The notes beneath the pieces were generated by a model. It was not told the DNA's origin and made no database searches. It saw nothing but the letters and a program-made list of their open reading frames with translations. The position numbers were made by a program, and so were the translations under genes. A DNA stretch of 64,000 bases from Liolophura sinensis (taxonomy: Eukaryota > Mollusca > Polyplacophora > Chitonida > Chitonidae): the NCBI RefSeq assembly GCF_032854445.1, contig NC_088304.1:29335732-29399731 (forward strand), in the 5' to 3' direction. This document shows, in pieces, positions 737 to 64,000 of this stretch. Position 1 is the first letter of the stretch, and every line of letters starts with the position of its first letter.

Positions 737-2404
737 TAAGAATCAACAAATAAACATGAATAAAATCTAAACTTGATAGCACGGTGACAACCACAGGCAC
801 TGCTGGGAAATGAAGATTACCCCAGCACATGTGGGAAGAATTAAATCAACGTGAACGTATAGAATTTATTTATTAGACTGGCACTTTAAGACGTAAACAA
901 AAATATCCAAACGTCAATTTTACAACGGAATTCAACCAAAGGTCATCTGAGACACATATTTTGATAAACGGCATCTTATAAACCAGCATGGTGCACGATT
1001 TAGATACTGATTTAAGTCATTTGCCTGGAACATTCCATTCAAATCCATCTTAATTTCTCGTGTTATATCTTTTATTACATATTTAGCGCTGCTTTGTAAA
1101 TTTTTCTTCATTTTGTTTAACGTTCATAATTGGTTGAAGGCTGATATACGAATTTCTATTTCGACGCCTATATATACTGGCGTGGACCACACAGCAAAGT
1201 AGGTTGAGAAAAGGTGTCCGTTAAGACACCTACTTATGGCAGACCTTTTGCGGTGAAGCACAAGATAGTTTTGGGTGATTAAATTAGATTATTTGAGGAG
1301 AGCTAGTGTTGCCCAAAACACTAAGGAAGTCTTTAAAGTGAGGTGTAACTTGACATTAATCCCCGAATTTTGGCGAGATTTACCAAATAGATTTGGTTTA
1401 TTAGGCGTGATGCCTTATAACGAGAGTTATTATATAATCACTGAAACATATGGTGGCGTACCTAGAACACACGTGTCTTACATAATCAACTTCATATCTT
1501 GGTGTAACCTTCAAAGGAAACGAGACTTACTTAATAACGGGAGTTATTAAACTTCCGTACACCCCGAGAATCAACCAAACAAATGTAACTTTAAAACGAG
1601 TCTGGTTTGTGTATCTTCTTCACTCCGTACTCTCTAAACACCGGTCGTTTTTATCTCATTCCATGAAGAGAACTTGTGCCAAGTGTTTATGCCCCAACAG
1701 CTGGTGCGAAAATAATATCATCAGAGAAGCAGGTGTGATGGGTGAACGTTGGACCAGCTGATGGTCGGCTGTTATATCTGCCGTGTTCACCCGCCTCACT
1801 AATGTCATGTGCATGCACAGAGCACACACCAGCGCCCGTTGGCGATTAATTACTCTGTGATGAAAACACTGTATTAATAGCAGTATATCTCTCCGCCAGG
1901 CTCTGAAGCGCCATAATGTGTATTATGATGGACTTTATAGACTCATAGTACCGCTATATGTCTCATTAGGGTAACATTTAATCTGAGTATACACCTATAA
2001 ATCATTTCCAAAGTTTAAACCTGATTATTAATTTTTTATACGTAAAAAGTTTTGATATTCCTGAACATCAGTTGGATGTATTACTGTATTTCTCCTTAAA
2101 GTAAGCATGCATGAATTTGAAAAGCATTGCTATGAAAAATGCAATAAGCCAGAAATAAAGGTAGTCGTTTCCAATTGTAACTTATATGGTACCAATCTGA
2201 CCTACACCACTTTTGATCTCTGAAATTCTCTTCGAACGACTTGCCTATGGATACTTCACGAAGTTGATACTGAATAAATACAGTGTGTGAACCAACGGAA
2301 TCACAGTTTGCTAAGCAGTGCAAAGTTTGAAAATTCAAAGGATAAAGAATCATCGTCGAATGTGCGGAAATATACTGTCATATCTTCTAAAAAATCGTCA
2401 GGGA
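737..2404. other. No gene recognised
   Basis: Only repeat E (985-1175) stands out. The 91-residue frame at 1275-1550 begins with a GTG and has no family features. Confidence 0.5.
985..1175 (+). repeat. Diverged repeat E, copy 1
   Basis: Shares AGCATGGTGCACGATTT, GGAACATTCC, CTAATTTCT-like and GGTTGAAGGCTGAT with 50890-51145, in the same order. Confidence 0.5.
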
Positions 2405-2412
2405 GACAAAAA

Positions 2413-2793
2413 CTTGTTGGCAATTGTAACTAAAACCATATGTTGGCAATTGTAACTAAAACCAACATGTTGGCAATTGTGACTAAAACCAACATGTTGG
2501 CAACTGTAACTAAAACCAACATATTGGCAATTGTAACTAAAACCAACATGTTGGCAATTGTGACTAAAACCAACATGTTGGCAACTGTAACTAAAACCAG
2601 CATGTTGGCAACTGTAACTAAAACCAACATATTGGCAATTGTGACTAAAACCAACATGTTGGCAATTGTAACTAAAACCATGTTGGCAATTGTGACTAAA
2701 ACCAACATGTTGGCAATTGTAACTAAAACCAGCATATTGGCAATTGTAACTAAAACCAACATGTTGGCAATTGTAATTAAAACCAACATGTTC
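2413..2793. repeat. 27-bp minisatellite, about 14 copies
   Basis: The unit starts TTGGCAATTGTAACTAAAAC and ends CAACATG. Being a multiple of three, it gives open frames on both strands with nine-residue repeats (MLAIVTKTN on plus). One copy has lost three bases (near 2680). Confidence 0.9.
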
Positions 2794-2805
2794 AAGTATT
2801 CCCAC

Positions 2806-5103
2806 ACATAAAGAACAAGGGGATAATAGTCATCTACTTGCCACCACATCCTCGAAATGGACAACTTTTATCGCCAACCATCAACTCCTGAACATGGATC
2901 ATTTAAAATGAAGTTCATGGCCCTAGAAACTATACTCTAGGCATGAACACTGATTTACATATTTCTAAGGAATGGATCCGAATCCGGTGGAAAACATGAA
3001 AGTGCGAAGGCCGAAACCATCAACGGGTCAAAAACCCGAAATGGACAGGCCACATCCCAATGGTAACTGACACTGGCTTGAACCTCCAAGGCTGTCTCTG
3101 CAGCCGAGTTCGTAGGCTCAAATATAGTTAGTTATAGAGAATTGGCGATCTGGCTTCCATCTAATCCCCTAATGTGAACAAATGTTATCATACATACAGA
3201 TGTATCTATATGCAGAAATTGGAACCTGATATTATATTTATTGACTTTACAAAAGATAAACTTCAATTCATTTATACCATGGTAACTGGTTAATTGTATA
3301 GCATGCGTCTTTTAGTGCGGTAAGACCCTAGACTCAGTATAATAACTTAAAAGTTGCCCAGGGAATAAAGATGACCACTGATATAACACTATGTCAAGTT
3401 TATTGTGTATTAATAATATTTACTGCTACTGTTACTAAAATGCTATAATCAGATAAGCCGATATAGAAGTGCAGCTGTATTAAAATCTCCTTATTTCTGG
3501 TACAAATAGGAGAAGTAACGAGCGCGTTTTCCCTCTTAATTTTGTCCGAAAAGAAGACAATAGCGACATTTATATGTAACGACATATGTGAAGTCTGATT
3601 TGCGGTAGTATTTGATTGATCGAAAACACAACCAATGGAAAACACCGCGCGATAGGTAGATCTGAGCCGGAAAGCATATGGTTGCTAAAGGTGCATGCGA
3701 CGTGAGAGGTATTCGTACGTCCTACCTGTTCTGGCGTCTTTATTCGCAGCTACAAGGTCGTGTCTGCACAAGTCGGCGTGAGTTTACAGAGTTACATGTC
3801 GGTGGGCCTTCAGCTCTGTTGTGGTTCATAGGATTTGACTACCATGTCATCGTGCACCAAATCCCCGTTTTATCTTTGTTATATATAAACGGGCTAGTGT
3901 GTCATGCATGTATAAAATACACGCTTGTTGCACCTAATGGAAGGTTATCGCGGCCCGTGAATTCCAGAGATAAGAAAAAATGAAAATGAAGATATCGTTC
4001 GTGATGAATGTATCGCTGAATTTATTGGTGTCGGATGGGAGAGTGTGTTTGAAGTTGCCCAGCAGTCGGCGAATGTCTTCATTAGGTGAAATGAATTATG
4101 ACTTAGCTAACAAGATGCCAGTGTCAGTACATGCACAGATGTTTGTATATTTATAGCGATGAAGATACGACCAGAATCCATTTGCACGCTTTATCTTTTC
4201 CTTTCTTATTCTCACACGATGCAGCTGATGAATTGTGCAAAACTGTACGTCCGTATATGCTCGGCATATAAACGACAGCTTAAGACGCGACTAAACTCAA
4301 CTCAACTCAAACGGTCAAACCACTCTCTTATCAACGAACCAAAAAGGTGGGTATAGTAGAAAACAATCCGATTCCAATAGTAGATATAGCTGCAACCTTT
4401 ACAATGCGATAGGTCAGCGCGAAAGTACGCATGCGCTGTAAGTCAAAGCGTCTAAACAAAGCCGCCCGAAAAGTAAATCAGCCTATAACCATCGCTCCTA
4501 ACAAATACCATCAGTTACAAGATGGATTGCGGCAGATGTCGTCCCCACCCCCTCCCTCTTAATCCTGGGCAGTGGTAGTAACGTGAGTGCGGCTGTTTCT
4601 CCGTCAAACCAAAAGGTGATTTCCGCCAACAAGGTAGCCGCGGGTCTCAGCAGTGCAAACAGTATAGGCCATTTCGGGGAAAGTGCAGGAGATGGGTGTA
4701 GAGTGATTGCGATTTTTCAGCAGATGGGGAAAGTCGAAACACGGACCAAAAATTGCACACTTTTAACACCACGATAACGATCTAACGTGCTCTGAGCCGA
4801 CAACATCCGGTGCTAGATAAGTTTTTGTTTGTTACACTTGCACCATACGCAAGGAATACCAGACAGGCTTAAGCTAGTCTTGGTGTTTTTGCAATGGTTG
4901 TTTTGCTACATGTTATAATCCCGGACCAGTTTGCTCAGCACGGAACGGCCTGTACACAGTTAACCAGCACCCTGAATTATTCCCCTGTACACGACTGAAT
5001 GGAAATTTTTCAATGTCTTTATGAAATATTACATATATGGGGGGCTTGTCATTAACAATAAATAGATTGCAACACTAAAATGTGATTAATTATTTTGTGT
5101 GCT
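2806..5103. other. No gene recognised
   Basis: Frames of 81 residues (minus, 3400-3645) and 101 residues (plus, 3678-3983) have no recognisable motif or splice context. GACTAAACTCAACTCAACTC at 4288 is a tiny simple repeat. Confidence 0.5.
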
Positions 5104-18760: not shown

Positions 18761-19204
18761 TGTAATGTACACATATACGACTTGCATCTGTGGAATTAGC
18801 GAGTGACGCAAGACTGTTAAACTAAACTAAAGTGTACAGCACGCAGTTTTATGAAGTGTTTACTTGAGTATTCTCCATGATTGTTCATTCAGTACTGCTG
18901 ATGATAACATGAACAAAAAGCTGAAACACTGAATGCATAATCGTTTAATAATTCTGAAAATTAGCAGTGAAACTATTGCATAAAGGCACATGTTGCGAAT
19001 AAAACTCGTCTCGCTTTTGTGGAGGTTTAATAAACACGTGGTGAACAATTTATTACTGTGCACAAGGATATTTGAGTTCTAAATGATTATGTATGGGCAT
19101 ATCATAAACTATTGGCAAACACAACTTAAGGCTGAGTAAAGTTATATAGCTATATAGTCGGGGCAAGTGTAACATACTGTAAGGCTGTTAGGTGTGTCCT
19201 AATA

Positions 19205-21405
19205 CACAGTATGTTTATACCTATGCTACAATATGGCAATCGGTACGATGTACACACGGTATGTTTATACCTATGCTACAGTATAGCAATCGATACGATG
19301 TACACACAGTATGTTTATACCTATATTACAGTATGGCAATCAGTACGATGTACACACAGTGTGTTTATACCTATGCTACAGTATGGCAATCGGTACGATG
19401 TACACACAGTATGTTTATACCTATGGTACAATATGCCAATCGGTACGATGTACACATGGTGTGTTTATACCTATGCTACAGTATGGCCATCGGTACCATG
19501 TACACGCAGTGTGTTTATACCTATGCTACAGTATGGCAATCGGTACGATGTACACACAGTATGTTTATACCTATGCTACAGTATGGCAATCGGTACGATG
19601 TACACACAGTATGTTTATACCTATGCTACAATATAGCAATCGGTACGATGTACACACAGTATGTTTATACTTATGCTAAAGTATGGCAATCGGTACGATG
19701 TACACACAGTGTGTTTATACCTATGCTACACTATGGCAATCGGTACGATGTACACACAGTGTGTTTATACCTACACTACTGTGTGGCAATCGGTACGATG
19801 TACACACGGTATGTTATACCTATGCTACAGTATGGCAATCGGTACGATGTACACGCAGTATGTTTATACCTATGCTACAGTATGGCAATCGGTACGATGT
19901 ACACACAGTATGTTTTAAATCTATGCTACAATATACCAATCGGTACGATGTACACACAGTATGTTTATATTTATGCTACAGTATGGCAATCAGTACGATG
20001 TACACGCAGTATGTTTATACCAATGCTACAATATGCCAATCGGTACGATGTACACACAATGTGTTTATACCTATGCTACAGTATGGCAATCGATACGATG
20101 TATTCGCAGTATGTTTATACCTATGCTACAGTATGGCAATCGATACGATGTACACACAGTATGTTTATACCTATGTTACAGTATGGCAATCGGTACGATG
20201 TACACACAGTGTGTTTATACCTATGCTACACTATGGCAATCGGTACGATGTACACACAGTATGTTTTAAATCTATGCTACAATATGCCAATCGGTACGAT
20301 GTACACACAGTATGTTTATACTTATGCTACAGTATGGCAATCAGTACGATGTACACGCAGTATGTTTATACCAATGCTACAATATGCCAATCGGTACGAT
20401 GTACACACAATGTGTTTATACCTATGCTACAGTATGGCAATCGATACGATGTACACGCAGTATGTTTATACCTATGTTACAGTATGACAATCGATACGAT
20501 GTACACACAGTGTGCTCATACGTATGCTACAGTATGGCAATCGGTACGATGTACACACAGTATGTTTATATCTATGCTACAATATGCCAATCGGTACGAT
20601 GTACACACGGTGTGTTTATACCTATGCTACAGTATGCCAATCGGTACGATGTACACACAGTATGTTCATACCTATGTTACAGTATGACAATCGGTACGAT
20701 GTACACACAGTATGTTTATACCTATGCTACAGTATGGCAATCGGCACGATGTACACACAATATGTTTATACCTATGCTACAATATAGCAATCGGTACGTT
20801 GTACACACAGTATGTTTATACTTATGCTAAAGTATGACAATCGGTACGATGTACACACAGTGTGTTTATACCTATGCTACAGTATGGCAATCGGTACGAT
20901 GTACACACAGTATGTTTATACCTATGCTACAGTATGGCAATCGATACCATGTACACACAGCATGTTTATACCTATGCTACAGTATGGCAATTGGTACGAT
21001 ATACACACGGTGTGTTTATACCTATGCTACAGTATGGCAATCGGTACGATGTACACACAGTATGTTTATACCTATGCTACAGTATGACAATCGGTACTAT
21101 GTACACACAGTGTGTTTATACCTATGCTACACTATGGCAATCGGTACGATGTACACACAGTGTGTTTATACCTACACTACTGTGTGGCAATCGGTACGAT
21201 GTACACACGGTATGTTATACCTATGCTACAGTATGGCAATCGGTACGATGTACACGCAGTATGTTTATACCTACGCCACAGTATGGCAATCGGTACGATG
21301 TACACACAGTATGTTTATACCTATGCTACAGTATGGCAATCGGTACGATGTACACACAGTGTATTTATACCTATGCTAAAGTATGGCAATCGGCACGCTG
21401 TACAC
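19205..21405. repeat. 50-bp minisatellite, about 44 copies, with higher-order structure
   Basis: The unit starts GTATGTTTATACCTATGCTA and contains GGCAATCGGTACGATGTACA. Blocks recur at longer spacing: 19.68-19.92 kb matches 21.08-21.32 kb (1.4 kb apart), and the block at 19.96 kb matches that at 20.31 kb (351 bp apart). Because 50 is not a multiple of three and the plus strand is stop-poor, all plus frames stay open, giving a 431-residue frame with a 50-residue period. It lies within the K2P first intron, on the opposite strand sense. Confidence 0.92.
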
Positions 21406-21687
21406 GTCAAGCACCAATTTTTAATGTGTAATTTCCAAAAATAAAAATTTATGAATATTGCAGTGAAATAAAATTTTGCCGCACCCTACCCCATCTTATA
21501 TAGCGGCTAACCAGTAAAGTACGGGAATCGGTATGGTGTACACGTTACAGCCAAACCAATATTTATTAAGTACTTTGCAAAAAATAAAATATTGCAATGA
21601 AATAAAATTTTGCCTTCCCATGGTTAATCAATGCTATAACAGCGATATTAATAATCCGATAAAACTCGGTAGGAAAAGCTTACTTAC
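21405..21687 (-). other. Start of K2P intron 1
   Basis: Sequence 3' of the GTAAGT donor at 21687, between the exon and the 50-bp minisatellite. It is AT-rich and no further exon is visible. The words TGCAATGAAATAAAATTTTG and CAGTGAAATAAAATTTTGCC recur about 130 bases apart (21460 and 21593), which suggests a small old duplication. Confidence 0.5.
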
Positions 21688-24670
21688 CTATTGTCGTCAT
21701 TACAGTTATTGCGTAAAGCAGTGACGATGCAAAGGACCATTGCTTTACAGATTCTAGCGAATCGTCCTTTCCATCCCATCCTTTTTCCTTTGTAGCAACG
21801 TAAATCTCCGTTTGAAAACTTTTCAACAACTGTTCCGCATTCTCCGTAAAATTCGATTTTTCTAACATGTTAGTTTGTACCAGTAAAGCATTATCCAACA
21901 GGTTCAAAACTATTCTGGTACGGGATTCCCGGATCTCTATCTGGTGCTTAATTTCATTGGGACGCTCGATAGATTGGAAAAGGAAGCCTCCAACGATGGC
22001 GTAGACGACGACAGAAGAGATCAAGCCGATGTGCGAAAAGAGGACGGCAATGAACTGTTTACAGCAAGACACTATTTCACGGCGCCTGTCTTCCAGCCTT
22101 TGATATTTACTTTCGCGTCTTCGCGCTAGATCCGGCAAATTTGGAGGGGTATCATCTTCACCCGGCAAAGGTTCGTCCGAAGCGACGGGTTCGAACTGTA
22201 GCTCCTTTTTCAGAATTCCCCTATCGTCTATAACTGGGCCGCTAGTACCACCGAAAGGAAAAGGGTTTAAGTTATCGCTTTTGCCACATTCATTTTCTAT
22301 CACAACGAATTCCTTCTCATGACTGTCTCCTCTTTTGGTTTGATCGTCATAATCCTCTATTCTCACATCTGGAAGCGAAGACCTCTGTGTCTGTGGCTTT
22401 TTCTTAACTTTCAGACTTCGGCTGCGGCGCGACAGACGTTTCACTAACACCAACGCTCGTATTGAGAGTTTATTACTTTTCTTGGTTTCCTCTACGACTC
22501 CGGACTTAGTACTAGAGCTGTCAGGAGCTGCCTGTATACACGGTATATCGTCGGTGACCAAACTGCCCCGTTGTTGCTCGGAAATGCTAGGGACGGGCGA
22601 ATATCTCTCAGAGCTTCTCCGCTTCTCTGCGGCGTCACTCAACACGTCCTTGGCGTCGTAGAACAATTCCTCTTCTTCGCTCTGTGATGAACGAGGTTCT
22701 GGGGACAATCGATTCCGATCGCCAGCATCTTTAGAAGCCTGTGTGAACGGTGCTAACGTCGCTTTGGCCGAGGGACCACACGCTGCCGATTCTTCAACAG
22801 GATCACGTTCCACACTATCACGATCCCCTGTCGCTTCTATAACAACTTTACATTTTATCTTGTCCCAATTAGATCGGGCCTTGGTCTGGTCCGCGTTAGC
22901 TAGAATTGTTTCAGTGCAGTTGCGTTGTGGACTGACGCTGTCGGATAGTAATTCTTCCCTAGGCGCGCCATGAGGCAGTGTGGTGGAGTTTGGACAAGAT
23001 TGGGCTGATTTCTCCACGGTACAATTTATTCTACCGACGGGGGAGTTTGACATTGAATCCACACTCTCAGCCTCAGCACTGAGAGTTTCATTACATTCGG
23101 TGTCTGATTTATTTGCTGACGCCACTGGACATGCATTATCCGCTGACATATCGTCTTCATTTTGTTTTCTTGTCGGAGAAAAAGTCCTGTTGTATTTCCC
23201 TGATTTACTCTTACCCGGCGAGGGACTGTTTGGCTTGCTTTCTGAGCTTTTCGTGCTCCCTTTCTTCCTGTGTCCGCTTTCCGATCGAGACCGTTTTGAT
23301 TGTTCCCTAGCTTGAGGTTCACAGGTGTCCCCTGGACCATGTGTTTCCTCATGGCTAGACACGCTTCGGCCAAACGAACGAGGAGATTTGTACTTCTCAG
23401 GAGTAGATCTCCTGAAAATATCGTCCCATCTAGCTCTCGGTGCTTCACTTTTGGATGGTGGGGGGACATTAGCGCATACCCTACCAGCAGTACTAGAAAC
23501 ATCAATGCCATCGCGTATATCACTAGATGTTGAATCAATTGATGGCGTTTTACTGAGAGCCAGGAAAGTTGCGCGAGACTGTCTCCTTCTCTCACTGACA
23601 TCTTCACTGGTAACATTCCAATCAACCTTTTCACCTTCATCCTGGAATTTCTGTACATCGGAATCTCTTTGGTGAATTGAAGTCTTTTGTTTTGTTTTCC
23701 TATTGTTGAGACCAAAGCGTCTTGTTTTGTTGTTTTTGTTCTTGTTGTTGTTTTTCTCTGTCTCAGATTTTTGTCTAGTTTTATCAGTACGTACCGTTTT
23801 ATTGTCGGAATGATTATTGTTCCCTTTGTATGCCTTAGGTTCTGGTGACGTGGGAACAGATCTGCCTCCTCCTTTTCCCGTGGTATTCACTGTCTTGTTG
23901 ACAGAGGGAGTTAATTCACCAATATTCTGAGATGTGCATGATTCCTTTGATAATATAACTGAACTGGATTTAACTTTTGGGGATTTTTCACTTGGAGTTT
24001 TATCACCTTTCCCTTCTACAGTTTCTTCAATGCCAGTCTGGTGACATTTGCGAATGTCGGGCATAGATGAAGATGTCCCCGAACGTGATCGGAACGCACC
24101 AAAGTTTGCTGAGTCAAATTCACCGTCGGTTTTGTCCGCGAATATTGGGAGCTGATTAACAGAATCTAACAGTCTCTGTTTCTGCTCCTCCCTGGCCTCG
24201 TGAACGGTCATCTTTCTTAACCTGCCCCTGGGCTTTCTGTGCGGATCAAACGTTCTGTAAGAGACCTCCACATCGCTTCCAACAACAACAACACTGTCCG
24301 TTTTGCAGCGTTCGCTAGATTTGCTGCGTCGCTTGTGAGACCTGGTTCCACTCAGAGATCGCGACCGTTTCATAGATGGCGACGACCGTCGAAAGAGTCT
24401 GCTTATGTTTCTTTTCTGAGAATTGTTCCTGGATGGCAGCGCCACGACAGCTATGTCTGACTCCAGCATCGCGGCATTAGACGTCGTTGGTGTGTCAGGA
24501 CGCGTCTCCCGGTCGGCGGACTTAGCTCGCCTCCCAAATCGCCTTGGGGACTTGGCTTTCTGCATCTTTTTGTCCTTTTTGCCTGCCTGTCCGTTCGAGG
24601 CTAGGACCGTTGTTCCTTCTGTCATGGTGGTCAATCCGCTTGTTGCTCCGTCACTTTCCACGCCATCCAT
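21688..24670 (-). CDS. Two-pore-domain potassium channel, first coding exon (partial gene)
   Basis: K2P channels are plasma-membrane background K+ channels that work as dimers, each subunit with four TM helices and two pore loops. This exon codes 994 full codons plus one base. TM1 is at about residues 873-902 (hydrophobic run ending FLFQSIE), followed by the extracellular cap with an N-glycosylation site (NFT, Asn940), then the first pore helix ending in VMTTIG. The donor ATAG/GTAAGT at 21688/21687 splits the first Gly codon of the selectivity filter; from memory, K2P genes often have an intron here. The start chosen is the ATG at 24670: an in-frame TAA at 24739-24737 lies upstream and only a GTG (24727) precedes the ATG. 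Residues 1-870 are polar and rich in Ser, Lys and Arg, with RS-like stretches and an Asn/Lys run; no domain was recognised. Most K2P N-termini are far shorter. TM2, pore 2 and TM3-4 must lie in later exons at lower coordinates; I did not find them, so the first intron may exceed 21 kb. Confidence 0.88.
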
Positions 24671-25300
24671 GATACGTCTACTACGCAGATACGGCCAATA
24701 TAACGGCTGACGTAATCGCCCAGCCACTCTTATGCCTTAAACTTATGTCGTTTTTTCGGATTCATTGTTTACAATGGTAATAACTTGACAGAAACATTAG
24801 CACAGCTTACACAACTCACAGCTTCTTAAAAGCTCCCACTTGCGGTAAGCGTGCGGAAAGAACATCCACTGGCACAACTTCTGCAGGTAGTGCGGGAAAG
24901 CGTGCTCAGCTTCATCATGTCTGCTATCTCAGCGAGTTATATCCACTTTGTGTAGGACTCCACAGCTGTTCTTACACCGGAGTACGATCCAATCCAAAAC
25001 AGAACCGCTGCTTGCGTAGTCGTCAGCATTAGCTGATGTTAGTGAGCACATATTGGATACGCGGTGTCTTCAGTCCCAAAATAACCGTGCGCCGAGGTGC
25101 GTGTGTTGCCCGTTCCTCGCTCATTGCGCGAGCGACTCGGGCAGAGTGAGCGGAGCAATACACGGCAAGATCGCGATAGAGCCTGTATGAACCGCAGATG
25201 CAGTCGTGCTTTGAGCCAGCACTTGGTTGAGACTTATATACTCCAGGTATCACGTTACACCTGTTTGCTGTGTTGACTTCAGCCGTTGGGCATATCAACA
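24671..25300 (-). promoter_or_regulatory. K2P 5' UTR and probable core promoter
   Basis: Reading on the minus strand, TATATAAG occurs at 25240-25233, about 560 bases before the ATG at 24670. Transcription would then start near 25.21 kb. The stretch in between is richer in CG than the flanks (for example 25090-25200), as expected of a promoter or first exon. An intron inside the 5' UTR cannot be excluded. The TATA match is seen; its use as a promoter is inferred. Confidence 0.4.
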
Positions 25301-55709: not shown

Positions 55710-56494
55710 TTTTCTGTTAAATTTAACAGGTTTTGAGTGAACAAGTGATAACAAGCGCTCAGCTCTGGTTGGGTACAACTGTCGGCGCCTGGATGGTAAC
55801 ACGGGGCACAGGCGTCAGGCAATCGCGAGAACAAACGCTAACGCACTCGCACATCCATTTAACCACAGACTTAACTGTCATCAAAATGATGATGTTTGTT
55901 TTAAAGTTAGATGGCTAATGTGAATATTGCGTCAGTACACAATTGGCTATTAATACCTATGTTACAATTTTCTGCTGGCTGCCTAGTATCCAGTTCAATT
56001 TTAATTTGGTTTTCTGTGTGCATTAATCAAAGTTATCTACAGAAAACTATGCTAAAGGTAAAGATTTATGTGTTTTACAAATATTAACGTAAAATGTACG
56101 AAAATTTCTGAACTATGTATGACTACCGAACAACACAGTTCTTTAACTTGGATTATTTGTTTGTCTCACACGGGCTGGAGACAGATATATGGCTTATTCA
56201 GAAAAAATTAACTGACCGCAGTATCTACCCTATAAGGTCTTTTTAAGCCTACAAGTGAAACCAAGGCGAATATAGAAATGAAACAATCATAAATTTGAAT
56301 ACAATAAAAAATTATCCAGTCATCATTTTTTCGTCATGTGCATGCAGTGCACTGTTTTTTTGTTGTTTTTTTTTTCATTTTTTTTATTTATATGTTAATT
56401 ATTGGATCATATTTATACAGGGAAGTTTGTTCAGTGAAATGACACCGCTCGCCCCATTTATATATTCTGTGACATTCTCTCACAGATCATAGTG
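55710..56494 (+). other. Upstream flank of VWA gene
   Basis: Includes a long T-rich tract (56350-56390) leading to CTCTCACAG at 56485, consistent with an intron end before the start codon. No upstream exon was identified. Confidence 0.5.
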
Positions 56495-57249
56495 ATGGCG
56501 GGTGTGAAGAGAAAGGCATCGAGAGCCTCATCTTACGAACGGCCGTCCAAGCTGGTTAAGAGCAGTACAAGTTCTGGGGTAGCCATGAGGAAGGACGACA
56601 CCCTTCCCCGAACACCATTTACCCCTGTAAAGCTGGGCAGTAAGAAAAAGTCATCGAAGTCGCCCTCTGGGAGTGTACCTGTAGAGGGAGATGTGGTTGG
56701 ACTGCGACGGGCGCCCACTTTGCCGCTGGTAGAAGAAAACTCCTCCAACGGTCTCTCTACAGGTGAGCACATAACGACCATTAGACGACTTCCCTCAGGA
56801 ACCTCTGTGGGGTCCACCGCCGATGAAGGCGCTGTGCCGAAATTAACATCGAAGAAATCAAGTCTGTTACGTCGAGAGAGCATCACTAAGACCCCATCGA
56901 AAAGTTCTAGGGAGAACTCTTTAGTTGTCCCCCCTCCTTTGCCGCCAGGTGGCCTCATGGAAATCGTCTTCTCCTTCGATACGACGGGGTCTATGTCCTC
57001 CTGCCTAGAACAAGTCAGAGGTCGCCTCTCGGATATGATGCAACGCCTCCAAGCGGACATCCCTGGCATCCGGATCTCCGTTTTCGCTCATGGGGATTAT
57101 GTTGACGCCGGAAAATACGTCACCAAATGGATAGACTTCGGAGCCACGCTTCCGGAACTTTGTGATTTTGTCAAAAACGTTGAATCCACCGGTGGTGGAG
57201 ACTTTGAAGAATGCTATGAGCTTGTTTTGCATCAGGTGGGTAAGGAGCT
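56495..57249 (+). CDS. VWA gene, exon part upstream of insertion
   Basis: Encodes residues 1-251 and the first two bases of codon 252. It covers the disordered N-terminus and the first half of the VWA fold with MIDAS Asp162 and Ser166 and the TGGGD loop. Without splicing, translation would run into the inserted element and stop at TAG 57266-57268 after only six more codons, truncating the VWA domain. A plausible donor, CAG/GTGGGT at 57235/57236, lies 14 bases before the insertion. Confidence 0.8.
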
Positions 57250-60200
57250 GGCCACAGACCCCCATTAGTTTTCCATAAGCGACAATGTTAACGTTTAGCG
57301 CTGTAGCTCAGTCCCAAACATTCCGAGGCCAATAAGCTTTGGTGCATACCTGGCCCAGCCTGAGAGAAAGAAGCTGTAAAAATCTTGACATAGGTTGACC
57401 GTCAAAATCTGGACCTTTACATGCCGGCAGCTGGGAGGGGTGCCTAGCAACGCCAAGGGGACGTCACTCGCAGCCTCATCACCACCTGTCTCCTTGTGTC
57501 CTTTCGCCCAGAATTTCAAACTTTCACCATTAAAACTCATACCTGCCCAAAGCTTAGACAATTTCCATCATTTTGATACCAAGCATGCACTTGTACACCA
57601 AAAACGGCAGGCTGGCAGCAAAAAAAGACTTTACACCCTAAAATACACAGAACTACAATCGTCCCTACTGAAAAACGGAAGTTGTAATGGGGGTCTGTGT
57701 CCTATCACACCAGCCAACTTTTTTCAAAATCGATAATTTTTGCACCACATAATGCTTACTACCTCTAAACCTCACACATAAAGTTACAGCTTGATACATG
57801 CAAAAACTTTTGAGTAGGAGGAATTTAACTTGGGGTACCCCTATCTTGGAAATGTGTCTGTTTGTCCGTCCTCAAGCACGAAGTTCAAAGCTCTGTAGTG
57901 CACATACCGTTCAAAATATCTTAACCAGGTCAAATGTTTTGGAAAGCTGGTATGTATATCTGCAAGAAAAATGAAAAAATTCCAATGACAAAGTATTTTA
58001 CATTTTCCATTGACAAACATTTAGAAAATTATGGATTTTCAAGTAGATTTTCTTGTTTACAGCAGTGTTAAGAAAATACTTAAAAGCCAAAAGTGTCAAA
58101 ATATATATCAAAAGACAGGTAATTTATCTGAAAATTCACTTACAAAATATAGGACATACCTTTTAGCAACTTTGTGCAAAATTTGACTTAAAGTGATACA
58201 GGTGGGTAGCAAAGCGGAGTTTCAAAATTCCAGAAAAGTACATTTTGATCACCATCAAAGTAAACATATGCATCCAAATTGATATAGAAATGCTCATAGG
58301 CACAGTTTCCATGGATAGGGCTAAAGAAAAGACTAGTATCCCTTTTACATAGTGATTCACATGATAAAACCCTTTAAAAGATCACCCACTACCCCCCCCC
58401 CCCCCCACTACCCCCCTTTCCCGTCTCCCCCATGGCTGCCATTGGTTGGCTGGCTTACCTCAACTCACAGTGCAAAAGAATCCCACCACCTGTGTTGTGG
58501 CCTCAGACTAAATTAGTACTTTCCACATAACAAACACCAAAGTGTGACACTGGCATCTACAAGAGATAAGTAGAGGGGAGAAATATGAATTTGCCACTTA
58601 CAAAAATAAAGCCACACAGTACATGCACATTGGTCATTCAGACAGTCAGCAAGGCAACCCTCCCAAGACAGGTTGAAGGGACCCAAGAAGAGGGGAAAAG
58701 CTGTACTTTTTAACCTGTAACAACACAGAAATCCTCAAATAATCAGTGAGAAATTACATCCGTAATCAGGTTCCACACTGGGTGTTCCTGGGTGGGCATG
58801 AGGAATGGACATTCAAACTGTCCGTACATATATGAGAAACCTGTGACGTTTCCCCGGTTGGGGGTGGGTGGGGGGGGGGGGGGGGGGGGCTGGAGGGGTA
58901 TGTGTCATGGTGTAGTACCGGACCAATGACGGGGATTCTAGGTCGGCCAAGGGAGTGGAAGACTGCATCCGAATGGTCAGGCCTTTGAGGAAGCTGAACG
59001 GCTAGCAGACCCCACTCACCTAGGTAGATCCCAGTTCAATATATGCATAAACCAGGCAAAGTTCACTGACGCCATGTTTGGGAGACACGATCTAAAGAGG
59101 GAAACCAAGACAAAAGCTCAATAGGTATTAAACTAGGATGTGAAAGCCATATGTAGCTGTCTAATTTCTAACTTGTGTGTGAGGACATTGGAAACATAAA
59201 AAAAATCCCAGTTGCCCAGGGAGGTGGATGCCACACTGGGCCAGATACTAAAACAAAAACTCCTTGAGATGTCGCAGGAACAGCGTACTATGTTCTGGTG
59301 GAAAAACAGACACCTGGTGGGGCAGAGACTCATTTTCACAAGGGCAATATTCCAACAGATCACACTCACATGTATGCTAGAAACTTGAAATTGATCATTT
59401 TTGTTCCAACGCCACAAATACGGTGTGAGTGCACATGTAACTTGTCAGAGGAATGAATATACACATGCAATGAAAACTACATGCCTACAGTGGTTTATTT
59501 TTAAGTTTAAAGAGGAAAATTTACCTTGTCCACTTCAAGTCTATGCCCAAAACAGCAGACAGTGTTCCAGCAGAGATGCCTGTTTTTAATGTTTTGTGAC
59601 CTGCAGGATGATTTGAAGCACATTTACCTAGTGTGTGGTGGCACACATGGGAGGAACCTGACTTGGTTTGTAAATTAAATGCACACTGGCCCTCTCTACT
59701 ACTCTAGCCAAGTAAATTAATCTGCTGATGTGTTTTTATCCACCTGTGTGAGGCTGGGCCCTTATATGTGATGCAAGGCCTTCTTGACCATCCTTAATCA
59801 CACCACCCTATCTATCAGCCACATACTCCAATTTCACTCGCAGCACTCAAATTTTGCATTATTTATCAAATGTCAGCCCCAAAAGAGACATTTTAAAAAC
59901 CAGGAACAATGAAACATTGTCTGTGTTTGTTCCAGTCTGTTTATACTCCTGTACTACCCTTGACCACAGAGCGTTTTAGCCGATTTTTAGACAAAATGGA
60001 TATGTGGGGAAAATATAGAATTAAAAAGCTTTAAAACTGCTCAATCAAGTTCCATGTCAATGCAAACCACATCGCATATGTACCCACCAAATATTATCAG
60101 GCTGCTGCGAAATCTGAGCACACAGTGACATATTACATGTTTTGGCACAAGTGGACAGATCAGGCCACAGACCCCCATTAGTTTTCCATAAGCGACAATG

Positions 60201-63200
60201 TTAACGTTTAGCGCTGTAGCTCAGTCCCAAACATTCCGAGGCCAATAAGCTTTGGTGCATACCTGGCCCAGCCTGAGAGAAAGAAGCTGTAAAAATCTTG
60301 ACATAGGTTGACCGTCAAAATCTGGACCTTTACATGCCGGCAGCTGGGAGGGGTGCCTAGCAACGCCAAGGGGACGTCACTCGCAGCCTCATCACCACCT
60401 GTCTCCTTGTGTCCTTTCGCCCAGAATTTCAAACTTTCACCATTAAAACTCATACCTGCCCAAAGCTTAGACAATTTCCATCATTTTGATACCAAGCATG
60501 CACTTGTACACCAAAAACGGCAGGCTGGCAGCAAAAAAAGACTTTACACCCTAAAATACACAGAACTACAATCGTCCCTACTGAAAAACGGAAGTTGTAA
60601 TGGGGGTCTGTGTCCAGCTGTCCTGGACCCCAGGAAGTCAGCGCTCCTTGGTGATGATAGGGGACGCAACTCCTCACGATCCAGATTACCCCGACAACAA
60701 ACTAAAACTTGACTGGCAAGATGAGTGCAAAAAACTACAACAAATGGTAAGGCTATGCTTTGTATTTGCATATATACGTCTTGTTCTTCTGTTAGTTCTG
60801 ATGAATTTCATTTCTGGACATTGTACCCTTGCATCTGTTCGTTTGTTATTTGTTCGTTTGTCATCTGTTCGTTTGTCACTATTTAATTCCGCTGAGACCA
60901 CTGGGGCTATAAGATAACTGCACTTTGAAGCCATTTTTACCCCCCAAAGTTAAAATTAAAAAATTTGTTTGTAGTCTTATCTGTTATTGCACATGATAAT
61001 CTGCACATTAAGAAATAAAACCAAAGCATTTCATCTGTCTAATATTTAATAATTTAAATGAATAGTCAGAATAAAAGCTGAACTGAGGTAAAAGACATAA
61101 GATCATATTTCACGAATTATTTTTAACCATTTGTCAACCACCACACTGTAACTGATGCTCTTATTTTACCGTCTACACTGTAGCCCTTCATACTGCAAAC
61201 AACATGCGTTCTTGTTTTAAGTAAGAGTGGCCCTCCGTGGCCGAGGGGATTATCACGCCAGCTTGCTCAGTGACACAGGAGTCTCCCATCAATCCGGTCG
61301 CTGTGAGTCCAGCTCATGCTGGCGTCCTCTCCAGCCCTCCGTGGGAAGGTCTGACAGCAGCTTACGGATGATCGTGTGTTTCCCCCTGGCTATTCCCGGT
61401 CAGTCGTATAAGGGAAATATTCTTCAGTGCGGCGTAAAGCAACAATTTGATAAATAAATAAATATTTTATGCAATAGAATTTTCTATTTTCTAGATGATA
61501 TAATATTGTCTACATTTCCTTTCATCAGATAAGGGCATAACATTTCAATAAATGAGCAGTTTAAAAATTGTGTACATATATCTTTATTTTAGGGAGTTCG
61601 CATCTACTCTGTCCAGGCACTCAACAACTCGACATCAACGGCGTTTTACAGAACAATGGCTGCGCTAACCGACGGGATACACCTTAAGCTTGACCAATTC
61701 TCCAATATTTTTGACCTGATTATGGCCATTTGTTACAGGGAAGGCGGTGTCGACCTATTCCAGGTAAGAGTTAGCAGTTTGTGGCGCATTTCATTGTTTT
61801 CCTCGCTGGGGAATGATGTAACCGAATTTTGACGCAGCAGCCGTCTGATTCGTGCTTCTGGAAAATTTCCTTTATTTAATTCTAGACCAGTGACGTTTTA
61901 TAATTGCAACTAAGATCACTGCAGCGTTTATCCTAATTTTGCTTAAGCCATGGTTCCAAGGGACGTGTACATCGCTACTTTTAAGCATATACATGAACAG
62001 TCGGAATAAAATTCTGACTGAGGAAAACTGAGACCGTATTTCACCGGTTACGTTTGACCGTGTGCCGATCACCACATTGTCATCACTGTTCTGGTCTTAC
62101 ATCTGTATGTAATAACCTTTTATATTCAAAATGGTTCAGGCCTATGAGGACGAAGTTCGGGGGCGTCATGTTGGCGGTGCTCTTAACAAGGACTTAGAGA
62201 AATTGTTTGGTGACCTCCGCACGGACAGGGAAGGTCCGGAGGAGAACGCACGCAAACCTAAGGCGAAGACAGTAAAAGCTGCACTGAAGCTGAAACCACC
62301 GGCCCTCGCATCTAAGCCCAAGTCGCTAAAGGCTGTGAAATTAGCGAAAGCTAAATCTGGTGCAAGAAAATCTGCGAAATTGGCAAAAAAGGTAGGCTGT
62401 CAACGCTGCCGTTGTTCAGTATATTTATGTATATAGACAAAAGTTTTTTTTTTGTCTTGTGCATTAATCTGATGGTTACATTTACATCTGTTGATCTAAG
62501 AAGTTCTTGTTTGTTTTTTTTTCTTGGAGTGGGGGACGGGGGGGAGTGGTTGTCTGGTAAAGTGATTAAGTACCTAGGCAAACTCAGTTTCTGGGCAAGT
62601 GAGTACAGAATTACAGATCAAAGGGAGACAACTATTCGTGCTATAGTGGTTTTATTGTTGAGAATGCGCTTACCCAATTATGTTTTTGGTTTTCAAGGTA
62701 AGGTATTTATTGTGAACCATACAAGCTGTCGTCTCAGTAACCTTCACAAATTCATGAATATTATACCAAATTACATGACGTCTTAAATGTATTATTTTAC
62801 TTTCAGAAGAAAACAGTGAGAAAGAAATGTCGTGAAAATGTTTCGGATAAATTGTTCCGCCAACAGTTCCCTAATATTTCCTGGAGTCAGTGGTACCTTG
62901 CATTTTCCTCCGAACGCCCGGATGTGGGAAACTGGCTAAAGAGATCTGCGGGGACAAAGCAGGGGTTCCGGAGAAAAGGACATTTTACGTGTAATGCTGA
63001 TGGACCCCGTGTCTTTGAAGTTGGTGTACAGGTCCGACCAAGAGAGAAAATATATGCTACATTTGTTGGCAAGAGGTCAGCCCCAAAGTCCGTTTCAAGC
63101 TGGGGCTTAGGCCTGCTCTCTGCACCTTTGCTGGCGAAGCAAGTGAACGCAGTGCTGTCTGGGAAAGTCCGAGTTTTCGTAAGATTAGGAAAGGCTAATT

Positions 63201-63352
63201 TCAAAGGAAAAAAGGCGCAGTCCAGCACGGTTGACAAGACCCAGGCAACTGCAGTGGGGACTTACGATTACGCCTGGATGAAGAGTAGACCCAACAGAAA
63301 ACCCCGATTAGTTAAAAAGGCAGGGACAAAAATATCGTATGACACAGTTTAA
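56495..63352 (+). CDS. VWA-domain protein, 616 residues, coding exon interrupted by insertion
   Basis: Coding blocks are 56495-57249, 60616-60746 (AGCT duplicated at the junction), 61593-61763, 62140-62391 and 62807-63352. The VWA (von Willebrand factor A) fold binds partners through a metal ion. The MIDAS motif is complete in its visible parts: FDTTGSM (Asp162, Ser166) and TGGGD (Asp236). Later conserved pieces are LVMIGDATPHD, LNNSTSTAFYRTMA, DGIHLKLDQFSNIFDLIMAICY and LFQAYEDEV. As I recall, this intracellular-type VWA occurs in bacteria and scattered eukaryotes; there is no signal peptide. Residues 1-150 are Ser/Lys-rich and disordered-looking with KRK near the N-terminus; residues 352-440 include a very basic Lys/Ala linker; the last 180 residues form a domain I do not recognise. 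CTCTCACAG/ATC at 56485 looks like an acceptor, so a 5' UTR exon probably lies upstream. The start is the ATG at 56495, preceded only by GTG. Confidence 0.8.
57250..57702 (+). mobile_element. Left 453-bp copy of TIR repeat
   Basis: It begins GGCCACAGACC and ends GGTCTGTGTCC; the two ends are inverse copies over about 17 of 18 bases. The inner flank is TATCAC, which does not repeat the AGCT seen on the outer side, so this copy alone lacks its own target duplication. Confidence 0.75.
60163..60615 (+). mobile_element. Right 453-bp copy of TIR repeat
   Basis: Same orientation and, by eye, same sequence as the left copy. The inner flank ends AGATCA; the outer flank is AGCT. Its last bases CC plus the duplicated AG form a CCAG/CTG acceptor candidate that is in frame with the downstream VWA coding block. 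Confidence 0.75.
60616..60746 (+). CDS. VWA gene, exon part downstream of insertion
   Basis: After the duplicated AGCT, the frame continues CTG TCC TGG ACC and codes LSWTPGSQRSLVMIGDATPHD, a central VWA strand and loop, ending KKLQQM at the donor ATG/GTAAGG (60746/60747). Read with the upstream part minus one AGCT, the joint is GGT AAG GAG CTG TCC TGG, with no frame change. Confidence 0.8.
61000..61195 (+). repeat. Repeat D copy in VWA intron
   Basis: GAATAGTCAGAATAAAAGC, GAACTGAGGTAAAAGACAT, CATTTGTCAACCACCACACT and CTTATTTTACCGTCTACACT. It is among the more diverged copies. Confidence 0.65.
61228..61463 (+). mobile_element. Family A SINE in VWA intron
   Basis: The head reads CCTCCGTGGCCGAGGGGATT, the box B region GTCGCTGTGAGTCCAGC and the tail GGCGTAAAGCAACAATTTGA with (AAAT)n. 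It has a small deletion in the body. Confidence 0.88.
61593..61763 (+). CDS. VWA gene, exon 3
   Basis: The acceptor TTATTTTAG/GGA and the donor CAG/GTAAGA give 171 bases in phase 0. It codes GVRIYSVQALNNSTSTAFYR and ends DLFQ. This is the C-terminal half of the VWA fold, including a DQFSNIFDLIMAICY helix. Confidence 0.85.
61878..62125 (+). repeat. Repeat D copy in VWA intron
   Basis: TTAATTCTAGACCAGTGACG, CTAATTTTGCTTAAGCCATG, TTCTGACTGAGGAAAACTG and TCTGGTCTTACATCTGTATG. It fills most of the intron before exon 4. Confidence 0.78.
62140..62391 (+). CDS. VWA gene, exon 4 (basic linker)
   Basis: The acceptor GGTTCAG/GCC and the donor AAG/GTAGGC give 84 codons, phase 0. It starts AYEDEVRGRHVGG, which continues the preceding DLFQ, then becomes a Lys/Ala/Pro-rich, histone-tail-like stretch (LKLKPPALASKPKSLKAV). 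This linker is probably disordered and could bind nucleic acid or acidic partners. Confidence 0.82.
62392..62806 (+). other. VWA gene last intron
   Basis: This intron runs from GTAGGC to TTTCAG. It has T-rich and G-rich runs (62440-62545) and no recognised repeat. Confidence 0.65.
62807..63352 (+). CDS. VWA gene, last exon (C-terminal domain)
   Basis: The acceptor TTACTTTCAG/AAG is at 62807 and the stop TAA at 63350-63352. It codes 181 residues: a short basic start (KKTVRKKC), then a globular-looking domain with ISWSQWYLAFSSERPDVGNW, VFEVGVQVRPREKIYATFVG and YDYAWMK. I do not recognise it. The aromatic spacing and alternating hydrophobics suggest a beta-rich fold. Confidence 0.82.
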   Translation, partial: KKTVRKKCRENVSDKLFRQQFPNISWSQWYLAFSSERPDVGNWLKRSAGTKQGFRRKGHFTCNADGPRVFEVGVQVRPREKIYATFVGKRSAPKSVSSWGLGLLSAPLLAKQVNAVLSGKVRVFVRLGKANFKGKKAQSSTVDKTQATAVGTYDYAWMKSRPNRKPRLVKKAGTKISYDTV

Positions 63353-64000
63353 CACTGAACACACTTGTAATATTAGAAGAGGGCATACATTATAATGCCG
63401 TGTAGCAAGTGCTAGAAGATAAACCCGCGCAGATGCTGAAGTGTGTTCTATTAAAAGATGACTGTAGTATAGTTAAACGACGAATATTTGGATGAGATCG
63501 TCATTTACAAATTGTAACATGATGCACATGTACACGGGAAATGACATCCATTCAAAGTTTAAACAGTCATATTTATTCCACATTAACGAAACTGAGACTG
63601 ACAAAAGGGCCACGGTATTAATTTCATGGTTTGTCTCTCAATATCATGAGATAAATTGCAAAAATGTGTTCATGCAAGAATGGCCTTGACAACCTTGACA
63701 AGGGTTCAACACCGAACTTATCCTGAAGCAGATGAATTGCTGCTCTATACTACCTGTAACCAAGGCCCAATAGAACTGCACTGAATTACCGCCCTTGATA
63801 CTTTTTAGGAGTGTACTTTGGTTTGGTTAAAAAAGCCTAGGATAAAAGTTTTATACATTTTAAGTAATTTTTAAAATCCCCTAATGAAAATACATATACA
63901 CGAACAACAGATGCATAGTTTCTACGAACACGTCAAATATGTGTATTCTGCCTGAGGCAAAACATATAGGCACACCCTCATAGGGATAGGGTTGCCTGGG
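63353..64000 (+). other. VWA gene 3' flank
   Basis: No further gene is seen. ATTAAA at 63450-63455 is a possible polyadenylation signal about 100 bases after the stop. The remainder is unremarkable AT-rich sequence. Confidence 0.45.

Follow-up and report, generated by a model that had tools for sequence, protein, structure and literature searches.

The window analyzed here is a 64-kb stretch of the Liolophura sinensis genome (C10:29335732-29399731), and all window positions count from its first letter. Toward its end lies a VWA-like gene on the forward strand whose first coding exon is interrupted by a long insert. The exon runs from 56495 to 57249, where its reading ends in AAGGAGCT, and the same frame resumes after the insert and a second copy of the four bases AGCT. 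The two AGCT copies (57246-57249, the last bases of the exon, and 60616-60619) constitute a target-site duplication, and the insert proper occupies 57250-60615, a length of 3366 bp. The rest of the interrupted exon (60620-60746) ends in the donor ATG/GTAAGG and is followed by coding exons at 61593-61763, 62140-62391, and 62807-63352. When the insert and one AGCT are removed, the resulting empty-site model is a single frame of 616 amino acids in five coding exons, from 56495 to the TAA at 63350-63352.

This exon model is based on reading frame, splice signals, and homology. The first coding exon matches three VWA Pfam models with E values from 2.5e-5 to 8.7e-4, none of the matches reaching the curated cut-off of its model, and a search of solved structures with the VWA part as the query returned one poor match. 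Searches of Rfam (56400-64000) and for tRNAs (whole window) gave no matches. The five exons are otherwise open, and the gene shows no visible decay that would predate the insertion.

An earlier, sequence-only reading of this DNA had described a young transposable-element insertion with a target-site duplication that splits a VWA coding exon (AAG GAG CT, then AGCT again), has identical ends, and, once removed together with one AGCT, leaves the frame intact. Each of these points is borne out by the letters themselves. The interval given at the time, 57236 to 60620, corresponds to the intron then proposed plus a few bases and is wider than the insert.

The insert has a repeat-internal-repeat structure. 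Its left and right long terminal direct repeats (LTDRs; 57250-57702 and 60163-60615, both on the forward strand) are each 453 bp long and match at all 453 positions. Each begins with GG, ends with CC, and carries imperfect inverted ends of 18 nt, of which 17 of 18 positions (94%) are complementary. Because the two repeats do not differ at any position, the insertion is, as far as sequence can date it, a recent one. Together, the exact 453-bp repeat, the 4-bp duplication, the unbroken empty-site frame, and the 40 copies of the repeat scored in the genome argue that the arrangement did not arise by chance.

Relatives of the gene indicate what the site looked like before the insertion. In the related protein P0121, which is 83% identical, HQVGKELSWTPG spans the site without a break, and the reading continues beyond the exon end. 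This protein, from a 3919-bp contig, extends beyond that end in much the way that a reading of the window's own intron would, which suggests that it was translated from genomic DNA. Within L. sinensis, the two nearest paralogs, both on C6 (66% and 63% identity), are likewise uninterrupted, and the L. sinensis protein P0097 includes the translated stretch of one of them. Two distant C6 matches (29% and 26%) also cross the site, each within one frame, and another match, on C11, stops short of it. In a protein-based search for a second copy of the exon with an empty site (15 candidates, 13 matches), one near-identical match covered the part before the insert, and this was the window's own. Homologs with an unrelated intron at exactly this position had been named as the observation that would tell against a recent insertion; P0121 and the two C6 paralogs have continuous coding sequence instead. 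Judged by these comparisons, the insertion site is ancestral coding sequence.

The 2460-bp internal region (57703-60162) has no long open frame, and its affinities became apparent from a better-preserved element elsewhere in the genome. A search of the L. sinensis genome for PF05551 (homing-endonuclease zinc-loop) yielded 54 matches, all over the cut-off, compared with none in any of 14 control genomes. Four of the matches lie on C9 and are spaced 4132 bp apart. Around the last of these is a 139-amino-acid endonuclease frame on the complementary strand (PF05551, 6.1e-8); the six-frame match from the genome search overruns the stop codon of this frame, and its match to I-PpoI is weak (E 0.039). 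Adjoining the endonuclease frame is a 453-bp repeat that shares 92% identity with the window's along its full length, and upstream, on the direct strand, is a 665-amino-acid frame matching PF20700 (Mutator-like transposase) at 1.1e-76. In a search with the C9 repeat, in which the best 40 copies were scored, five 453-bp repeats with an exact spacing of 4132 bp were found at C9:31862897-31879877. With a PF05551 match in each of its four units, this array looks like a tetramer. The same search identified several further repeat pairs, ~4.1 kb apart, elsewhere in the genome. Besides an array whose period is exact, L. sinensis also has near-identical elements bearing both transposase and endonuclease frames.

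Both genes have left decayed remains in the window's insert. A tblastn search of the 64-kb window with the 665-amino-acid frame (L053) identified two overlapping pieces of the transposase gene in different frames, at 58990-59238 (E 5e-18) and 58904-59335 (E 1e-10), with stops inside, and an additional weak piece at 58573-58788 (E 0.004). The endonuclease frame (L052) matched 59632-59886 on the reverse strand (E 4e-5), in two frames and again with stops inside. Aligned to the part of the C9 element that was retrieved, the insert is 69% identical over its positions 896-1549, 71% over 1673-2072, and 76% over 2319-3366. The alignment and the remains of both genes identify the insert as a degenerate, non-autonomous relative of the C9-type element.

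These features point to a known kind of DNA transposon. In the consulted parts of Kojima and Bao 2022 (PMC9587614), KolobokP elements are described as having two direct repeats of ~450 bp, with inverted ends of 11-18 bp in each of the repeats, termini of the form RR..YY, and target duplications of 3-5 bp. They also occur as solo repeats and as multimers with outer duplications, and they encode a transposase on the direct strand and a His-Me endonuclease downstream on the other strand. The chiton family agrees with this description. Its two long direct repeats (453 bp, identical in the window's element) are found in 17 complete copies; the inverted ends within each repeat span 18 nt with 17 complementary; GG..CC conforms to 5'-RR and YY-3'; target duplications fall in the 3-5-bp range without strong sequence preference; and solo repeats as well as one dimer flanked by TACT are present. 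The C9 transposase (PF20700) and endonuclease (PF05551) frames have the published order and strands, and the C9 monomer (4132 + 453 bp) falls within the 4022-4748 bp of autonomous oyster elements given in the same source. Two differences stand out from the consulted parts of that paper: at 3366 bp, the window's copy is slightly longer than the non-autonomous families of Crassostrea gigas (1738-3261 bp), and the host class, Polyplacophora, is missing from its Table 1.

On the strength of these shared features and of the match of the C9 transposase to a Pfam "Mutator" model, the insert is very probably a non-autonomous DNA transposon of the KolobokP kind. Judging by Table 1 of PMC9587614 and by a literature search in which one paper names KolobokP, KolobokP in chitons appears to be previously undescribed, the host being of a molluscan class outside the published host table. 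The part of an eLife study of chitons that we consulted (PMC12005716) contains nothing bearing on the present insertion. What had been put forward as a possible intron birth becomes a named and checkable case of KolobokP interrupting a chiton coding exon.

To place the window's copy within its family, we searched the genome with the 453-bp repeat and scored the best 40 of 2072 first-look candidates, the window's two repeats included. The 29 regions fetched around the scored repeats, together with the window, contain 17 complete repeat-internal-repeat elements (one of which lacks a short piece of its right repeat) and 9 solo repeats, "solo" meaning that a second repeat is absent within ~3.6 kb. 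The remaining copies in this set comprise L036, a multimer; L018, which lacks the left repeat; L020, which runs into an assembly gap; and L025, which is truncated. Of the 17 complete elements, 14 (L010 included) lie between exact 4-bp duplications, as do 8 of the 9 solo repeats; L031 has AGACT on both sides, and L017, L033, and L028 have no exact duplication. The multimer is a dimer of the form repeat-internal-repeat-internal-repeat, with TACT at both outer ends. The start of L051, its outer left repeat, is altered; the full-length repeats listed otherwise have GG..CC termini. L018 (C10:9148100-9155800) retains only the internal region and the right repeat between two copies of ATTA, with five internal bases gone. 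In this respect it looks like the excision footprints published for KolobokP (PMC9587614, in the part consulted), as if the left repeat had been excised; another reading of the junction is the loss of one base plus one substitution.

The set of complete elements also allowed us to compare paired repeats. The comparison covered 16 of the 17 complete elements around the best 40 repeats, without L010, the dimer, or the truncated copies; as the best matches to the window's repeat, the 16 form a biased sample. Within an element, the two repeats differ by a mean of 1.56 bases, with no difference in 9 of the 16 and 6 or 7 differences in three. Between a left repeat of one element and a right repeat of another, the mean is 5.02 bases, and none of 20,000 reshuffled pairings came as close as the true ones. 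Among 34 repeat variants, 17 are found in a single repeat; of the 17 present in more than one, 12 are in both repeats of every carrier and 3 are mixed, with 1 present in right repeats only and 1 never present in both. Eight of the 12 both-repeat variants are confined to one element each. The window's own variant is among these: at alignment column 258, it is present in both window repeats and in none of the 15 other complete elements compared. No variant is limited to the left repeats of several elements, and one is limited to right repeats.

Since variants are shared within elements, the left and right ends do not evolve apart, unlike what would be expected under plain cut-and-paste transposition. 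This pattern bears on how KolobokP keeps its paired ends alike. We tentatively suggest, at rather less than even probability, that both long repeats of each new KolobokP insertion derive from one template, such as a circle with a single repeat. If this is true, the LTR-like identity of the two ends would arise in a DNA transposon with no reverse transcription involved. The competing account of the same pattern would be that the two repeats often undergo gene conversion or unequal crossover with each other, and circles and crossover are both discussed, and left open, for the KolobokP pathway in the consulted part of PMC9587614.

The same long identical direct repeats, the solo repeats and tandem form, the short duplication, and the variants common to both repeats of one element would also be seen in a non-autonomous LTR retrotransposon of the TRIM or LARD kind, its 453-bp repeats being LTRs made by reverse transcription. 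The chiton element nevertheless has GG..CC rather than TG..CA termini and 18-nt inverted ends in each repeat, and no primer site was noticed in the self-complementarity and repeat-adjoining bases that were looked at. Its kin, moreover, encode a transposase and not a reverse transcriptase: the related repeat on C9 adjoins the PF20700 and PF05551 frames, and the insert holds remains of both genes. This origin is now highly improbable, and we dropped it as largely refuted, since the KolobokP features together with the C9 endonuclease, transposase, and repeat fit better.

What the KolobokP insertion does to the gene depends on whether it is spliced out. Read from the exon into the insert, the frame (56438-57268) ends in ..VGKELATDPH, with its first stop codon at 57266-57268, inside the left repeat. 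The sequence-only reading had instead envisaged a nascent intron, with the insert removed between a donor at 57235/57236 and an acceptor at 60617/60618 whose AG comes from the right copy of AGCT. The pair does keep the frame, giving 612 amino acids and losing only V-G-K-E. Splice sites were scored with generic position frequencies, which are uncalibrated and not drawn from Liolophura sinensis. On this scale a rank of 3 among 225 marks the donor CAG/GTGGGT at 57236 as strong, whereas the acceptor at 60617, with a score of -4.16, ranks 60th among 220 and is weak. The top two acceptors by the same generic frequencies, 57511 and 60424 (score 7.17), are the same site, TCCTTGTGTCCTTTCGCCCAG, in both repeats, and such strong acceptor-like sites could cause exonization of the repeat in host transcripts. 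A stronger acceptor also lies shortly downstream, at 60633, and its use would shift the frame as followed by hand. The native acceptors of the gene score 0.9, -3.09, and 1.48 with these frequencies, so that one of them is almost as low as the proposed site, which falls ~1 unit under it.

In the predicted model of P0121 (mean pLDDT, 73 overall and 96 at residues 241-250), the equivalents of the four residues that splicing would remove are residues 245-248, which close a confidently predicted helix (238-248); their removal would take away one helix turn. Among the 120 homologs listed, all four positions are present in 106, one is absent in 14, and more than one is absent in none. We also looked for an L. 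sinensis protein from this locus and found none among the best 120 of 631 matches or the best 120 of 366 matches, in searches covering lengths of ~339-1078 and 141-450 amino acids, the first of which scored the 7993 candidates sharing most words. As a positive control, the neighboring gene retrieved L. sinensis LOC135477085 with 100% identity over the searched part. The absence of a locus protein is weak evidence for loss of function; according to the consulted part of PMC11068029, the donor of the published L. sinensis RNA was a different individual.

Splicing of the insert would also invite comparison with introners, which, as described in the consulted part of PMC9860276, may derive their donor and acceptor alike from the place of insertion, with others altering neighboring codons. 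The chiton element resembles these in having a duplication inside a coding exon and a frame-keeping splice pair on paper. It differs in that its family shows, in the sites examined, no tendency toward host coding exons. Across 25 insertion sites whose flanks we joined (16 complete elements and 9 solo repeats), the window's spans an open frame of 369 codons, the next longest being 219 codons (L014), followed by 156 and fewer. By frame length and inspection by eye, only the window's own site lies in a recognizable host coding exon. Many copies serving as introns in genes are accordingly not seen in this sample. Among the literature matches listed, judged by title and the start of the abstract, there was no paper on Kolobok-made introns.

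Because the frame meets an early stop, the proposed acceptor is weak, a helix would be shortened, the four positions are present in most listed homologs, and no locus protein is listed, loss of function is the likeliest outcome, and the interrupted gene is most probably a knockout allele. The birth of an intron, which the earlier reading had raised ahead of a knockout, is very improbable given the weak acceptor and the better ones in the repeats; a partly working spliced product is possible, given the strength of the donor at 57236 and a splice that keeps the frame. Uninterrupted in relatives, the site is a clean one for studying whether splicing ever removes a new insertion that has a strong donor upstream of it. 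A broken gene copy may also be of little consequence where related VWA genes remain, a reading compatible with a KolobokP insertion and only somewhat short of an even chance. The two C6 paralogs that read through the site speak for it, but they are distant, and the gene had not visibly decayed beforehand.

The best explanation, and a very probable one, is that a non-autonomous KolobokP element (453 + 2460 + 453 bp) entered the first coding exon at AGCT in recent times and that the gene copy was lost or reduced. The insert with its duplication, its kinship to a transposase/endonuclease element of the same genome, and the uninterrupted site in relatives are shown by the sequences. The element would have been mobilized in trans by one with transposase and endonuclease frames, with four bases duplicated on insertion. 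Transcripts would then run into the insert and reach the stop at 57266-57268, and the VWA-like gene copy would be lost or reduced as a consequence.

Several further observations concern the surroundings of the gene and the family. The solo repeat L014 (C6:49421000-49428800), flanked by a GTCT duplication, sits inside the 219-codon frame mentioned above, which we take, by eye, to be a Tc1-type transposase. The 3' part of the VWA-like gene (window 61644-63716, from inside the third coding stretch) recurs ~11.9 kb downstream (L044/L050, C10:29407782-29411357) at 99.3-99.5% identity, with an extra G in that exon; this copy stems either from a tandem duplication in the recent past or from a second haplotype that was not purged. 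On the reverse strand, window positions 21683-24736 hold a 1018-amino-acid open frame that is part of L. sinensis LOC135477085 (precomputed Pfam matches PF00520 and PF07885). Next to it, at 19204-21405, self-comparison revealed a tandem array with a period of ~50 bp and units that are ~90% alike.
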